Source: Paenisporosarcina sp. FSL H8-0542 (GTDB lineage: Bacteria; Bacillota; Bacilli; Bacillales_A; Planococcaceae). Taken from it: DNA of 64,000 bases. Below the pieces are notes generated by a model. It was given only the letters and a program-made list of their open reading frames with translations, made no database searches and was not told where the DNA came from. Positions 26,159 through 30,357 of this stretch are shown in pieces. Numbering within the stretch: the first letter of the stretch is position 1; the number at the start of each line of letters is the position of its first letter. The DNA lies in NCBI RefSeq assembly GCF_038632915.1, contig NZ_CP152050.1, positions 879,501 through 943,500 on the forward strand. Direction: 5' to 3'. The position numbers and the translations under genes were made by a program.

Positions 26159-26320
26159 TTGAATATAGGTGACTTCTTTCTCACTATTATTGTGTTCATC
26201 ATTCCAGTACTCATCACTGGCCTCTTAATTTATATGTTCATGTCCTCGAAAAGCCGTAAAAATCACAACCAACTAAAAGACTCTTTATCAGAGGGCGTAT
26301 CCAAAAAACAAATCAAGTAA
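26159..26320 (+). CDS. Small single-helix membrane protein
   Basis: A 53-residue protein with one strong membrane helix (about residues 6-30, FFLTIIVFIIPVLITGLLIY) and a charged tail (SSKSRKNHNQLKDS). TTG 26159 is chosen because GAGAGGGGG precedes it; a longer frame from 26090 lacks a ribosome site. I do not recognise the family. It converges on the RRNPP regulator pair and shares their terminator. Confidence 0.6.
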   Translation: MNIGDFFLTIIVFIIPVLITGLLIYMFMSSKSRKNHNQLKDSLSEGVSKKQIK

Positions 26321-26370
26321 AAAAGCAGAGACTGCAATGGAATAAAAATCCCGGCAGTTTCTGCTTTTTT
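26321..26370. terminator. Bidirectional terminator, small gene/propeptide gene
   Basis: AAAAGCAGAGACTGC pairs with GCAGTTTCTGCTTTTTT around an 18-base loop. It starts at the stop of the + gene and ends 2 bases from the propeptide stop on -. Confidence 0.85.
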
Positions 26371-26372
26371 AA

Positions 26373-26513
26373 TTAGTTGTTTAGAGCAATAAATGTAGGT
26401 GATTTGATACTTGTGATTCTAGGTATTTGAGCTTCAGCAGATGTGTAGTCTTGAGTAGCAAAACCTAAAATAATAACTGAAGCCAATAACATAACTGCTA
26501 ATTTCTTTTTCAT
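26373..26513 (-). CDS. PapR/NprX-like secreted signalling propeptide
   Basis: A 46-residue product with a Sec signal (MKKK, then LAVMLLASVIILGFA) and an Ala-x-Ala site (AEA, residues 26-28). Cleavage there would release QIPRITSIKSPTFIALNN. In PlcR-PapR and NprR-NprX pairs the active signal is a C-terminal 5-8-mer of such a propeptide, here probably within SPTFIALNN. The ATG overlaps the regulator stop (TAATG), and the GGAGG ribosome site lies inside the last codons of the regulator, so translation is coupled. A terminator follows at once. The function is inferred from layout, not homology. Confidence 0.72.
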   Translation of the reverse strand: MKKKLAVMLLASVIILGFATQDYTSAEAQIPRITSIKSPTFIALNN

Positions 26514-27802
26514 TATAATTCCTCCAAGTAAGTAATAGATTTTTGTAAAAATTGATATTCTAATGCTTTTTGATACGTTAAAGACGAATTTTTGTATTTC
26601 CTGTGGTAACTATATAAATCAGCTAATTTAATAGCATATTTATTGGCGTGTCGATAATCTTTCGTTTTTTCAAAATAATCTATGGCCGATTTGTATAAGT
26701 TTACGTCCTTTAAATCATTATTATTCATAATTTCATAAATTTTAAAATGAAAATAATATGAATTGTTCTTTTCGGAAGGACTTGATTGTAATAAATCAAA
26801 TCCAGTTTTACACCATTCAATGATTTTCACTGTGTTTTTTTGTTTTGAGTATTCTTTAACTATTGAAAAAATTGATAATAAATAACCTTCAGTATTCTTG
26901 GGGCTATTAAAACTCTCGATATAAAATTCTATTGCCTTCAAATGATTATTCTTTTGAGAATACAAAAACCCTAAATTTTGAGTAATTATACCTTCATACT
27001 CTTTATACTTTAAATCATTTGCAAGTTTCTTTGCGAGTAAATAACTTTCTTCTGCACTTTTGTACTTTGCAGTATAGGCTTGAGCAATACCAATCACAAT
27101 ATAACAATCAATTGCTCTCTTAAAGATTAAATTATCTTTATAATAACTCAATGCTTTTGAAGAATATTCAATCGTATTTAACAAGTGATTGTTAGAGAGA
27201 TAAGAAATACTTAAAACGTTATAAAAGTCAGCTATTTCCCAGTCATCCAAATGGAATACAGTTATGAGTTCTAAAGAAGATTCAAGATAAATGAGGGATT
27301 CTTTGTATTCTTGCTCAACATGTAACAATATTCCACAGTTTGTATTGAAGAGAAAAAGTTGGCGATCATCAAAGTTTTCTTTCATTTGATTCAACGCTTC
27401 CATCAAATTTAACAATATTTCGTTATTTGTATCAGTTATTAAATGTAAACGGAAGAAATAAAGATTGTAGGTATAGAAGTTATGTTCATCTTTAAAAAGA
27501 AAATTTCTTTCCTTATAAGATTTCAACTTTTCCAGAATTTCTTCTTTATTTCGATTAATAATTGCATCTTTATAAAGAAGATAAAGCTCAGATAGGAACT
27601 CTGTTTCCTCTTCAGTGGAGAGATCCTCATAATCCAGATTTAATCTTTCCAATAAAAGCTGCAGGACATCTTCGCTTGGAACCGTCTGGTTATTCTCAAT
27701 CTTGCTTAAATAGGAGGTGGAACAGATTCCTTTTGCTAACGTAACTTGTTTCATATTTTGTTGTATGCGGGACATTTTGATGAGTAAACCGATATTATTC
27801 AT
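26513..27802 (-). CDS. RRNPP-type HTH/TPR quorum-sensing regulator (NprR/PlcR-like), copy 1
   Basis: A 429-residue protein. An N-terminal Xre-type helix-turn-helix (about 5-60) contains TLAKGICSTSYLSKIENN. The rest is helical with TPR-like pairs (ADFYNVLSISYLSNNHLLNTIEYSSKALSYY, GIITQNLGFLYSQKNNHLKAIEFY). Length is close to NprR (about 423 residues) and well above PlcR (about 285). It should bind a re-imported peptide through the TPR groove and then control transcription. AAGGTGG precedes the ATG. The secreted propeptide gene follows in the same transcript. Its paralogue is at 28475-29764. Confidence 0.85.
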   Translation of the reverse strand: MNNIGLLIKMSRIQQNMKQVTLAKGICSTSYLSKIENNQTVPSEDVLQLLLERLNLDYEDLSTEEETEFLSELYLLYKDAIINRNKEEILEKLKSYKERNFLFKDEHNFYTYNLYFFRLHLITDTNNEILLNLMEALNQMKENFDDRQLFLFNTNCGILLHVEQEYKESLIYLESSLELITVFHLDDWEIADFYNVLSISYLSNNHLLNTIEYSSKALSYYKDNLIFKRAIDCYIVIGIAQAYTAKYKSAEESYLLAKKLANDLKYKEYEGIITQNLGFLYSQKNNHLKAIEFYIESFNSPKNTEGYLLSIFSIVKEYSKQKNTVKIIEWCKTGFDLLQSSPSEKNNSYYFHFKIYEIMNNNDLKDVNLYKSAIDYFEKTKDYRHANKYAIKLADLYSYHRKYKNSSLTYQKALEYQFLQKSITYLEEL

Positions 27803-27836: not shown

Positions 27837-27865
27837 AATATCTACTACTTGTAGTTGGGAAACAA
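27837..27865 (-). promoter_or_regulatory. Possible promoter of regulator copy 1
   Basis: On the minus strand TTGTTT (27860-27865) and GATATT (27837-27842) are 17 bases apart. The -35 box overlaps the left GTTGGGAAAC arm, so occupancy of that arm would affect this promoter. Confidence 0.4.
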
Positions 27866-28068: not shown

Positions 28069-28365
28069 ATGTTTACAGGTAGAATGTATAAATTGGATCG
28101 ATTTCAGGATGATTTAGCAGTTCTCTTGGAATTTCCTAGTGAATCAAATGTATTGGTCGTTCCAACAGATGATTTAACTTATGATATGAAAGTTGGCGAC
28201 GTATTACTAGTAGACATTCAGGAAGAAGGCTTTCATATCTCGAAAGTGAACAAACGTGCTGCAAATAAACAGAAAGAAACAGATTCTGTTTCCACTGCAC
28301 AAAAAATTAACAGTTACTATATTGATTACGAACACGGTTGTTTAGTTTATACAACGGCCAGCTGA
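28069..28365 (+). CDS. DUF3006-like protein with C-terminal extension
   Basis: A 98-residue protein. Residues 7-63 (YKLDRFQDDLAVLLEFPSES onward, through KVGDVLLVDI) follow the small DUF3006 beta domain. The rest (QKINSYYIDYEHGCLVYTTAS) is unfamiliar. AAAAGGAG precedes the ATG. It is encoded between the two RRNPP regulator genes and its promoter region carries their shared motif, so it may be a target. The function is unknown. Confidence 0.65.
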   Translation: MFTGRMYKLDRFQDDLAVLLEFPSESNVLVVPTDDLTYDMKVGDVLLVDIQEEGFHISKVNKRAANKQKETDSVSTAQKINSYYIDYEHGCLVYTTAS

Positions 28366-28411
28366 TTTTAGCGTTCAAAGGCACTGCCGCCAGTGTCTCT
28401 GACATATACCG

Positions 28412-28463
28412 AAAAGCCTGTAATTATTTCCCCCGACCTCGGGAAATAGTTACAGGCTTTTTG
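28412..28463. terminator. Bidirectional terminator, DUF3006 gene/regulator copy 2
   Basis: AAAAGCCTGTAA pairs with TTACAGGCTTTTT, and an inner ATTTCCC pairs with GGGAAAT. It lies 11 bases past the regulator stop. Confidence 0.88.
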
Positions 28464-28474
28464 ATTTGGTTGTT

Positions 28475-29764
28475 TTACAAATCCTCCCAGGATGTGTAAT
28501 TGTTTTTTAGAAACAGATACTTATTTGAAGCAGCGTAATATTTTGCAGCATTTTTATATTTATTGATCTCATTAAAATATTCCGCTAAAAAAATATAATA
28601 TTTATAAGTATATAGATAATCCTTTGCCTCTTTAAAGTATTGGATAGCATTAAGAACTACCTTTTCAAAGTTAACGTAATTCGAGTTCTTTGAAATGTAA
28701 ATATTAAAATGATGCTTGAAACGGATTAAGCCATTTTCATGTTGTTCATTCAGTAATTCAAGTCCTTTATTTGACCATTCGATTACTTTTAGAGAATTAG
28801 ATTGCTTTGAGTACTCTTGAACAATAGAAAGTACACTTATTAACTTTATTTCTGTTCTATCACTCAACGTCATACTCTCTAAATAGTTTTCAATCGCTTC
28901 TTTCGATTTACCCCGTAATGACATTACGGCACCAAGGTTATGGTAGATAACAGTGAATTGTTCTTCTAAATTAAGCTGTATTGCAATTCTCTTTGCTAGA
29001 AGCAATGTCTCTAATGCATCATCTAGTTTAAATGAGGTTTTTTGGGCAACGGCTAGAACTAAATAACACTCAACCGCACGAATGTAAAAGAAATTATCTT
29101 TAAAATAAGCTAATGCTTTTTGAATAAATTCAGTAGAGATCACCACTCTTTGATGTTGGATATAAATTATGCTCAGCATATAATAAAAATCTGCTGTTTC
29201 CCATTCTTCAATGGATAAATTTTGATGTTCTTTATAGGCTTTTTCAAACGCTGCTAATGATAATGAGAAGTCATGTTTGAAATAATAAAAGCTTCCTAAA
29301 CAAGAATTGAATAAAAACATCTGGTATTCATCAAAGTTACTGGATAGCTCGGATAATGCCATAATCAGTTCGGTTGTGTCATTTTGAGCATTTTGTACAA
29401 TTAAAGTCAATCTAAGGACCATGAGCTGATATGTATAAAAATTTGAAGAATCTTTAAATAAGTAACGTTCATTATTAATTTCTTTTAACGCTATAGCTGT
29501 GAGTTCGCGGTCTTTGTTCATGACGGCATTGAAATATATCTCACGAATTTGCTTCAGATAACTTTCGTCGTCTAAACTTTTGTTTTGGTTAATCGCAAGT
29601 TCGAGTCGGCTTAATAGTAAATTGACCACTTCTTGACTTGGAACGATGGAATTGTTTTCAATTTTACTTAGGTAGGAGGGAGTACAAATCCCTTGAGCTA
29701 ATGTAATTTGCTTCATATTCCTTCTAATTCTCTCAAGTTTAATCACATGTCCGAAGTTATTCAT
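28475..29764 (-). CDS. RRNPP-type HTH/TPR regulator (NprR/PlcR-like), copy 2
   Basis: Also 429 residues and clearly paralogous to copy 1: MNNFGHVIKLERIRRNMKQI, then LAQGICTPSYLSKIENN and IVPSQEVVNLLL, with similar TPR pairs (WETADFYYMLSIIYIQHQR, HNLGAVMSLRGKSKEAIENY). No propeptide frame follows; a terminator begins 11 bases after the stop. Yet the last codons, like those of copy 1, spell GGGAGGA, as if a coupled downstream start had been lost. GGAGGA precedes its own ATG by 11 bases. It may respond to the peptide of copy 1 or to another signal. Confidence 0.82.
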   Translation of the reverse strand: MNNFGHVIKLERIRRNMKQITLAQGICTPSYLSKIENNSIVPSQEVVNLLLSRLELAINQNKSLDDESYLKQIREIYFNAVMNKDRELTAIALKEINNERYLFKDSSNFYTYQLMVLRLTLIVQNAQNDTTELIMALSELSSNFDEYQMFLFNSCLGSFYYFKHDFSLSLAAFEKAYKEHQNLSIEEWETADFYYMLSIIYIQHQRVVISTEFIQKALAYFKDNFFYIRAVECYLVLAVAQKTSFKLDDALETLLLAKRIAIQLNLEEQFTVIYHNLGAVMSLRGKSKEAIENYLESMTLSDRTEIKLISVLSIVQEYSKQSNSLKVIEWSNKGLELLNEQHENGLIRFKHHFNIYISKNSNYVNFEKVVLNAIQYFKEAKDYLYTYKYYIFLAEYFNEINKYKNAAKYYAASNKYLFLKNNYTSWEDL

Positions 29765-29907
29765 GGTCGAAGCTTCCTCCTTTACTTATATTTTACATCT
29801 TTAAAATTCAATCTTTATCCTACTATACGTTCATTAAACTTAAAACAAAAGTTTAATCAAGAAATTTATTTCATAAAAATGATATATATATGCCCTGAAT
29901 GTGAAAA

Positions 29908-29917
29908 CTTTCCCAAC
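29908..29917. promoter_or_regulatory. TTTCCCAAC motif before regulator copy 2
   Basis: CTTTCCCAAC differs by one base from the GTTTCCCAAC arm near regulator copy 1. It lies between regulator copy 2 and the divergent small gene at 30004. A 9-bp inverted repeat (ATTAAACTT / AAGTTTAAT) is also present closer to the regulator, near 29830-29860. Confidence 0.45.
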
Positions 29918-30003
29918 ATTATCGACATTTTTCGACGTTTTTTTCATGTAAACTACTACTAGAGGAATTAAACGAGAGAATATAAAGGGGAGGTGAGTAG
30001 GAA

Positions 30004-30213
30004 ATGAAAAATACATCATTGATTTTGATTCAAATTGCTTTGGGCTTTTTTCTTCTAAGAAACAGAAGAAATATCACGAAACCCATACACATAATTGCGT
30101 TCGCTTTTTTTACCTTGCTCATGATCTATTCCATTTCAAATCTACTCCCTATTCTTGGTGAAGGTGTAACGGTTGTGAAAAAGCACATCAACACTGAAGT
30201 AATCAGATTCTGA
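30004..30213 (+). CDS. Small membrane protein divergent from regulator copy 2
   Basis: A 69-residue protein with two likely membrane helices (about 5-18 and 29-50) separated by a basic loop (RNRRNITK). GGGGAGGTGAG precedes the ATG. I do not recognise it. Its position opposite the second regulator makes it a possible target. It ends just before a hairpin and the dehydrogenase fragment. Confidence 0.55.
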   Translation: MKNTSLILIQIALGFFLLRNRRNITKPIHIIAFAFFTLLMIYSISNLLPILGEGVTVVKKHINTEVIRF

Positions 30214-30215
30214 AA

Positions 30216-30251
30216 CGAAAAACCATTTGTGTAAATCTGATCCACAAATGG
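30216..30251 (-). terminator. Minus-strand terminator-like hairpin
   Basis: CCATTTGTG and CACAAATGG pair around an 11-base loop. Reading the minus strand, TTTTTCG follows. It lies at the broken end of the dehydrogenase fragment. Confidence 0.5.
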
Positions 30252-30357
30252 CTGTAGAGGTAATACGAACAATAATATCATCTCGTTTTTGACGTTTTGG
30301 ATCTTCCACTCCTTTGACTTTGATATCTTTCGTGCCTTTAAACGTAATCGCCTTCAT
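30229..30357 (-). pseudogene. Truncated zinc-dependent alcohol dehydrogenase fragment
   Basis: Residues 1-43 (MKAITFKGTKDIKVK, then DDIIVRITSTAICGSDLH) are the start of a medium-chain zinc dehydrogenase of the glutathione-independent formaldehyde dehydrogenase type, with the catalytic-zinc Cys in ICGSDLH. Homology stops there, and the frame runs on into unrelated sequence to 30142. A normal enzyme has about 380 residues, so about 90 percent is lost. A ribosome site remains (GGAGGA). Confidence 0.78.

Follow-up and report, generated by a model that had tools for sequence, protein, structure and literature searches.

The locus described here raises the question of whether a regulator of the HTH/TPR type and a very short gene lying directly behind it constitute a quorum-sensing system of the RRNPP kind and, in that case, which part of the short product carries the signal and what the regulator recognizes on the DNA. 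The window, i.e., the whole stretch of DNA that was analysed (64,000 nucleotides), belongs to Paenisporosarcina sp. FSL H8-0542. The reading favoured below, to which a probability of roughly 0.7 is given, is that the cassette is a quorum-sensing system of the NprR-NprX type, autoregulatory, in which paired half-sites would be bridged by a tetramer of the regulator.

An initial annotation of the window had described a 429-residue HTH/TPR regulator on the minus strand, and the corresponding ORF indeed matches HTH_3 (9e-11) and TPR_12 (2e-8). The unlisted 46-codon gene with a Sec-like start that had been placed behind it is also present; its translation is MKKKLAVMLLASVIILGFATQDYTSAEAQIPRITSIKSPTFIALNN, and its Sec signal was judged by the basic N-terminus and a hydrophobic segment. 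The sharing of a single base by the regulator stop and the propeptide start, as TAATG, is found at base 26513, the ribosome site falls inside the last regulator codons as had been stated, and the unit is closed, again as described, by a terminator with a hairpin and a U-tract (-26.2 kcal/mol, z = -6.7; for a 68-nt stretch, z = -6.4). The sequence shows the regulator and its propeptide to form a single unit, coupled in translation and retained as a pair (Table 1).

Table 1. Positions in the window of the cassette, of the neighbouring orphan paralogue and of their predicted control sites.
Feature	Positions	Strand	Basis or remark
Regulator P0001	26513..27802	-	ORF and translation, 429 aa
Parts of P0001: HTH (about residues 4-53), then TPR superhelix		-	
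Sec-type propeptide P0002, proposed signal precursor	26373..26513	-	ORF, 46 codons/46 aa
PRITSI core codons, proposed heart of the mature signal	26406..26423	-	Motif count, pN/pS
GGAGG ribosome site	26521..26525	-	Within the C-terminal LEEL codons of the regulator
Intrinsic terminator 3' of the propeptide gene	26310..26372	-	Hairpin and U-tract
Operator-like element TTGGGAAA-N44-TTTCCCAA	27855..27914	.	Upstream of P0001; inverted half-sites
Orphan paralogue P0003	28475..29764	-	429 aa, no peptide gene; 39% identical to P0001
Fossil ribosome site GGAGG (TGGGAGGATTTGTAA)	28483..28487	-	Last orphan codons, no peptide gene behind
Terminator hairpin directly 3' of the orphan	28413..28460	-	Stretch 28405-28480, z = -6.8; stem listed on the + strand
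Degenerate element TTGGGAAA-N44-TTTCTTGA	29857..29916	.	Upstream of the orphan; 3 mismatches
Tandem repeats ACGTCGAA-AAA-TGTCGAT, presumably Spo0A-box-like	29921..29938	-	Upstream of the orphan

The propeptide frame is found at the same overlap in 7 of the 7 regulator orthologues of at least 60% identity (the window, L058 and L009-L013), all of them with a basic, hydrophobic start of the propeptide; the small frame is thus conserved beside homologous regulators, and the proposal of an RRNPP-type receptor with a coupled propeptide is upheld by this pairing and by the modelled TPR fold. Among seven other genomes of the same genus, two (G001 and G002) contain no orthologue at this identity. A propeptide gene is also present in 12 of 12 Psychrobacillus-type rows (L062, L064-L068, L071, L075, L077, L096, L015 and L016), with regulators 44-47% identical. 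Since the pair is conserved in both groups, it is regarded as a real RRNPP pair, and a conserved receptor with a tiny gene for a secreted peptide very probably lets the cells sense their own density.

The wider family comprises ORFs with a length of 370-470 aa and a score of 50 bits or more, 103 regulators in all once entries sharing the same final 300 aa had been reduced to one; kinship among the rows inflates every count made on it. Of the 55 regulators whose score against P0001 reaches 155 bits, 31 were assigned a peptide gene and 24 were not; the caller accepts only frames with a ribosome site whose product has a basic N-terminus and a hydrophobic segment, and it misses some genes (L036 was scored as peptide-less, yet has a plausible propeptide). 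Of the 31 paired regulators, 29 carry GGAGG in their final 24 nt, versus 1 of 22 unpaired ones, two of the 24 having been dropped for too little downstream DNA. The nearest named relatives of the regulator are those of Paenisporosarcina sp. HGH0030 (84%) and P. quisquiliarum (82%), which places the window in or close to that genus (Caryophanaceae). The window's genome (3.63 Mb) contains eight regulator-family matches at E <= 0.001, and two of its three other close family members have a propeptide, the third being the orphan P0003; the propeptide of L002 ends in ...EEIPRPVIELK and that of L004 in ...DDMPGPKSVDIELIVKQSISNP, both in this genome. The largest number of family matches among the 61 genomes compared, 11, is found in another member of the genus (G003).

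Upstream of the regulator gene, the half-sites TTGGGAAA and TTTCCCAA lie 52 nt apart, start to start, and the element is found at one spacing in 7 of 7 orthologues, with diverged intervening DNA. In a survey of the 57 regulators that score 150 bits or more, TTGGGA[AC]A was found within 450 nt upstream of 40, and in 0-6% of the mononucleotide shuffles of each region taken alone. For 39 of the 46 TTGGGAAA sites, a second half in which 6 or more of the 8 positions match lies within 12-89 nt (background 36%), and 35 of the 46 best second-half offsets, ties included, fall at 51-54 nt. With both halves required 50-54 nt apart, the element is present in 35 of 103 upstream regions, in none of 103 in-gene controls and in 1 of 2060 dinucleotide shuffles. 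The 35 regulators bearing it come from Paenisporosarcina, Psychrobacillus, Oceanobacillus, Exiguobacterium, Pontibacillus, Fictibacillus, Aquibacillus and others; neutral retention is unlikely because the extremes are about 30% identical in protein, with kinship still inflating the count. An exact second half is found at 33 nt instead in L030 and L026, and the first half-site is absent upstream of the paired regulators L002, L106, L062, L014, L071, L073, L019, L050 and L051. A reading of GTTGGGAAAC...GTTTCCCAAC as an RNA hairpin was rejected (z only -2.3, no Rfam match at the gathering threshold); because of the weak fold and the near-constant spacing, it is read as a DNA site. By analogy, the half-site spacing, about five helical turns, fits an NprR-type tetramer bridging two predicted sites.

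Exiguobacterium offers an observation of its own: regulators without a called peptide gene keep TTGGGAAA upstream in 8 of 8 loci (L078-L081, L085, L087, L088 and L091), and most of these regulators end in WE or WD.

A scan of 398 Bacilli genomes gave 19 copies of the strict element, spread over 12 genomes, and six of the reversed pattern. Eight of the 19 stand before family regulators (G000, G300, G005, G206, G086, G225 and two in G409), three of these being shared with a divergent subtilase-like gene; four stand before further subtilases (PF00082; three in G374, one in G409), two, both in G409, before a PfpI-like and a PhoX-like ORF, the latter about 240 nt off, and five, near the control level, inside ORFs (G152, G343, G042, G218 and the second G225 copy). 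Genomes with the element before subtilase ORFs are G206, G086, G225, G374 and G409, and Peptidase_S8 was recognized by Pfam in 6 of the 6 subtilase ORFs run, the G086 ORF lying outside that set. When nine element-bearing genomes were searched again at 1e-20, family regulators were found in G374, G409, G225, G206, G086, G042 and G218 and none in G152 and G343; TTGGGAAA is absent upstream of 16 of the 21 family members in these nine genomes, including the best one of G374. Among plasmid relatives, of which 10 were found, the element is absent from all four examined. Given that it precedes subtilases in some relatives, an ancestral output of the system was probably density-dependent protease production.

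In the window's own genome the only strict copy is that of the cassette. At a gap of 44 nt and with up to three mismatches, 49 places were found versus 26 for the reversed control. Of the 49, 39 lie inside and six overlap an ORF of 100 aa or more; the other four are the cassette, the orphan and a pair of unremarkable places near genome positions 72,052 and 3,475,119. Other gaps were scanned with exact halves only, and exact halves of the two-half pattern gave seven matches, two of them the cassette locus, versus four for the control, the remaining five all falling within ORFs, as do the sites in 11 further loci. GTTGGGAAAC occurs at 10 sites, with no excess over the 10 of its reversed control, and a 20-bp dyad with up to three mismatches at 151 (control 94). 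Since the near-matches lie almost all in ORFs, the excess over control does not point to a regulon; none is visible in this genome from the element scans, nor was the element seen there before protease genes. The predicted protease link comes from the relatives, not from the window's genome.

A second kind of neighbour deserves description here. A divergent SigO/RsoA-like split sigma pair lies about 0.4-1.4 kb upstream of the paired regulator in eight loci (L062, L064-L068, L071 and L096, from Psychrobacillus and Bacillus sp. FJAT-22090); the family matches, examined for L064, are below the RsoA cut-off. Such a pair is possibly an output of the quorum system. In the window's genome, two SigO/RsoA-like pairs are located away from the cassette (L136 and L137).

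The presence of these pairs, beside the regulator in the eight Psychrobacillus-type loci and twice in the window's genome, lends some weight to the idea that TTGGGAAA-N44-TTTCCCAA is the site of another factor, e.g., the -35 of a SigO/RsoA-like sigma or the site of some other protease regulator, and a promoter-like hexamer pair does begin at 27855 (+), in a region no richer in such pairs than its shuffles. An inverted pair of half-sites whose spacing hardly departs from 51-54 nt is, however, unlike a promoter, TTGGGAA is absent from the loci of the window genome's two sigO-like pairs, the element is retained by Exiguobacterium regulators at about 30% identity, and the two genomes without a family regulator (G152 and G343) carry their single copy inside an ORF; a site for another factor is thus rather unlikely.

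As for the signal itself, the initial annotation had located it in the C-terminal SPTFIALNN, and this assignment is probably wrong. The motif P[RK][IPV][TI] is present in 24 of 31 propeptides (1000 shuffles: mean 0.2, maximum 3), and pN/pS over the seven orthologous propeptides is 0.51 overall, 0.48 in the signal part, 0.22 in the core and 0.78 in the tail, values drawn from seven sequences with non-independent pairs and synonymous sites near saturation. In the tandem-repeat propeptides of relatives the repeated unit has acidic residues before a proline: SEPDHPKIV is repeated three times in L147-L149, and other units are DEDYPDILGVVNPL (L109), DDNPPIAKSFL (L102) and SDNSPGIKSL (L161). The C-terminal position is the common rule for RRNPP pheromones, with NprX propeptides named as an exception in the text available of PMC10075063. 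Core constraint, tandem repeats and the NprX exception together place the mature signal probably around PRITS(I), residues 31-36.

That the pheromone is instead the tail, either SPTFIALNN or the last 5-9 residues, would agree with the common rule just cited, with the similar tail kept in 6 of 7 orthologues, in variants such as TFIALNN, TYVALNN, TFVTLSY, TFVTLSN and NFVASNN, and with the SF[IL]-like residues at the end of several Psychrobacillus peptides. Against this improbable reading stand the contrast in pN/pS between tail and core, the orthologue L012, which has no tail, the peptides of L002 and L106, which end at PRPVIELK, the proline-centred core contained in the tandem repeat units, and the exception made for NprX. 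The tail as sole signal is disfavoured by motif count and pN/pS; it may nevertheless belong or contribute to the signal. Tandem-repeat propeptides as such were seen behind family regulators in L032, L033, L102, L108, L109, L131, L147-L149, L161 and L216, with the presumed signal unit reaching nine copies (L161/L197).

On the receptor side, the E-values of a 61-sequence profile are 4.3e-56 for NprR (4gpk), 1.9e-45 at best for Rap proteins and 8.1e-12 for PlcR. The AlphaFold2 model of the regulator has a pLDDT of 92.8 and a pTM of 0.87; its best Foldseek E-value is to Rap (4gyo), apo NprR 5dbk_A has a TMt of 0.77, and the query-normalised TM-score is 0.53-0.65 to NprR chains and 0.34 to PlcR (PlcR target, 0.49). 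The TPR superhelix expected of the regulator is accordingly found in a confident model matching Rap and NprR, and its length, which had been called NprR-like, agrees at 429 aa with the about 423 aa of NprR (PMC5641580, as far as available), in line with profile and fold. By profile and predicted fold, the regulator is NprR/Rap-like and not PlcR-like.

When 17 functional residues of NprR named in the accessible part of PMC4970707 were mapped onto the regulator by alignment, not superposition, D107, F225 and Y410 were kept, a few were similar and most were changed. In the peptide site, R126 is replaced by D124, Y165 by Q164, H201 by S203, N306 by G306 and D309 by L309, with the class kept at W167 (aromatic, Y166) and R343 (basic, K345). 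Among the Spo0F contacts, D107 is kept (D105), Y118 is similar (F116), Y223 becomes L225 and E188 becomes I190, which adjoins E189; among the dimer and tetramer residues, Y410 and F225 (F227) are kept, and N407 (S407) and Y223 (L225) are changed. Since most of the mapped pocket residues differ, the binding mode may differ too: in build the regulator looks like NprR, and a likeness of the pocket is unsupported by the alignment.

A regulator that is mainly Rap-like, i.e., a DNA-independent inhibitor of sporulation (a Spo0F phosphatase) that the peptide inactivates, would account for Rap profiles and folds matching about equally with those of NprR and for the top Foldseek E-value being Rap; NprR itself is bifunctional (PMC4970707, in the part consulted), and the equivalent of D107 is retained, with F for Y118. 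This is nonetheless distinctly improbable, given that all nine invariant columns of the 61-sequence alignment are within the HTH part and that E188 and Y223 have become I and L. The likeness to plcR-papR and nprR-nprX claimed for the gene layout holds for gene order and does not extend to PlcR beyond it: a PlcR-PapR system, which has an identical gene order and a recognizable profile match (8.1e-12), is rejected, being next to impossible with that weaker match, a query TM-score of 0.34 versus 0.53-0.65 for NprR chains, and a regulator of 429 aa against a PlcR chain of 293 residues.

In the favoured NprR-NprX-type reading, the propeptide would be exported via Sec and cut by signal peptidase, following its usual cleavage rule, near the AEA/Q junction, and trimming would yield a short peptide containing PRITS(I). 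An oligopeptide permease would re-import the peptide, the window's genome encoding six SBP_bac_5 proteins, which we take to be of the OppA family, and the TPR groove would bind it. Binding would switch the regulator, as for NprR, to a tetramer bridging two half-sites; NprX converts the NprR dimer into a tetramer that has been suggested to bind two DNA sites simultaneously (PMC4970707, same part). As this tetramer would bridge half-sites in the regulator's own promoter region, the first target would be that promoter, in a feedback loop, the sign of regulation being likewise part of the proposed scheme.

The orphan paralogue next to the cassette adds a second potential receptor. A tree built on the 70 rows that score 105 bits or more groups all seven orphans of Paenisporosarcina in a single clade (support 100/100); because the tree is midpoint-rooted, the direction of the change, a loss of the peptide gene, is one that we infer. 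The window's orphan is the sole unpaired regulator of the 22 to retain GGAGG, the other six orphans having the same C-terminal residues with GAA for GAG, so that GGAGG is lost. Upstream of it stand a degenerate copy of the element and tandem repeats, which we take to resemble Spo0A boxes; ACGTCGAAAAATGTCGA (17 nt, in the repeats) is identical in all seven orphans aligned, and one Spo0A_C protein is encoded in the window's genome. The orphan may respond to the cassette's own peptide or to a sister one. Between the two regulators lies a DUF3006-like gene (28069-28365, +; 2.1e-7, just below the cut-off), an arrangement kept in L058. A 71-aa frame at 30142-30357 (-), also of 71 aa in L058, presumably resembles the truncated start of a zinc-dependent alcohol dehydrogenase.

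A broader reading, which is put forward tentatively and at somewhat less than even odds, is that of a distinct NprR-like branch with its own peptide code, [DE][DE]xP[RK][IP]TS, a tetramer-looped operator, subtilases as targets and a two-receptor circuit. The branch would span Caryophanaceae, Bacillaceae and Exiguobacterium; its peptide-induced tetramer would bridge half-sites five helical turns apart, bending or looping the DNA, and would regulate its own gene and drive subtilase genes in several genera. In Paenisporosarcina, the Spo0A-linked orphan would read the same signal and, with its degenerate operator, make up the two-receptor circuit.

If true, NprR-like quorum receptors would have an operator readable in the DNA, by which target genes could be predicted from genomes, and the two-site proposal for the NprR tetramer would become a testable spacing rule. 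The cassette would also argue for signals located within the propeptide, a point of importance since guesses at a pheromone commonly start from the C-terminal end, and the fossil ribosome site of the orphan would catch a possible eavesdropper in the making.

Literature searches returned no paper joining RRNPP, quorum sensing and Planococcaceae, and none joining Psychrobacillus and RRNPP; among the matches listed for Paenisporosarcina and quorum, none, in the portions at hand, concerned the cassette, and a text search for TTGGGAAA was uninformative among the matches listed. Words beginning with Planococc or Sporosarcina are absent from the main texts of PMC9765709, PMC10075063 and PMC12700828, as far as those texts were available; NprR is reported in 21 genera in the available part of PMC9765709, so that relatives may be listed there.

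Among the known systems, PlcR-PapR shares gene order, HTH and a secreted propeptide with the cassette, and differs in its shorter regulator, of a five-TPR clan (PMC12700828, in part), and in its much weaker match. Rap-Phr shares the nine-TPR superhelix and the secreted propeptide, whereas a DNA-binding HTH is present in the regulator here; Rap receptors without a pheromone gene have been discussed as eavesdroppers (PMC9765709, same part). In Priestia koreensis FS-1, two plasmid systems are labelled NprR-NprX in the available text of PMC10075063, one of which, we infer, is the 27% identical plasmid regulator of that strain; its propeptide carries EEEFPEPT, like EEEVPRPT, and the TTGGGAAA element is absent upstream. 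The closest counterpart is NprR-NprX of the Bacillus cereus group, from which the cassette differs by an identity of 17-19% over the aligned fold, by the change of most NprR pocket and Spo0F-contact residues, by R following P where K precedes P in NprX, and by the paired TTGGGAAA element, for which no NprR counterpart was found in the parts of the literature searched. Shared with NprR-NprX are the regulator followed by its propeptide gene, the length of HTH plus nine TPRs with a profile match across the whole TPR part, a putative protease link, seen here in relatives, and a P-x-I pattern common to PRITS and the NprX signal SKPDIVG (PMC5641580, in part). The cassette, which had been called new-looking, is hence half new: the peptide code is its own, and the receptor falls within the known NprR/Rap group.
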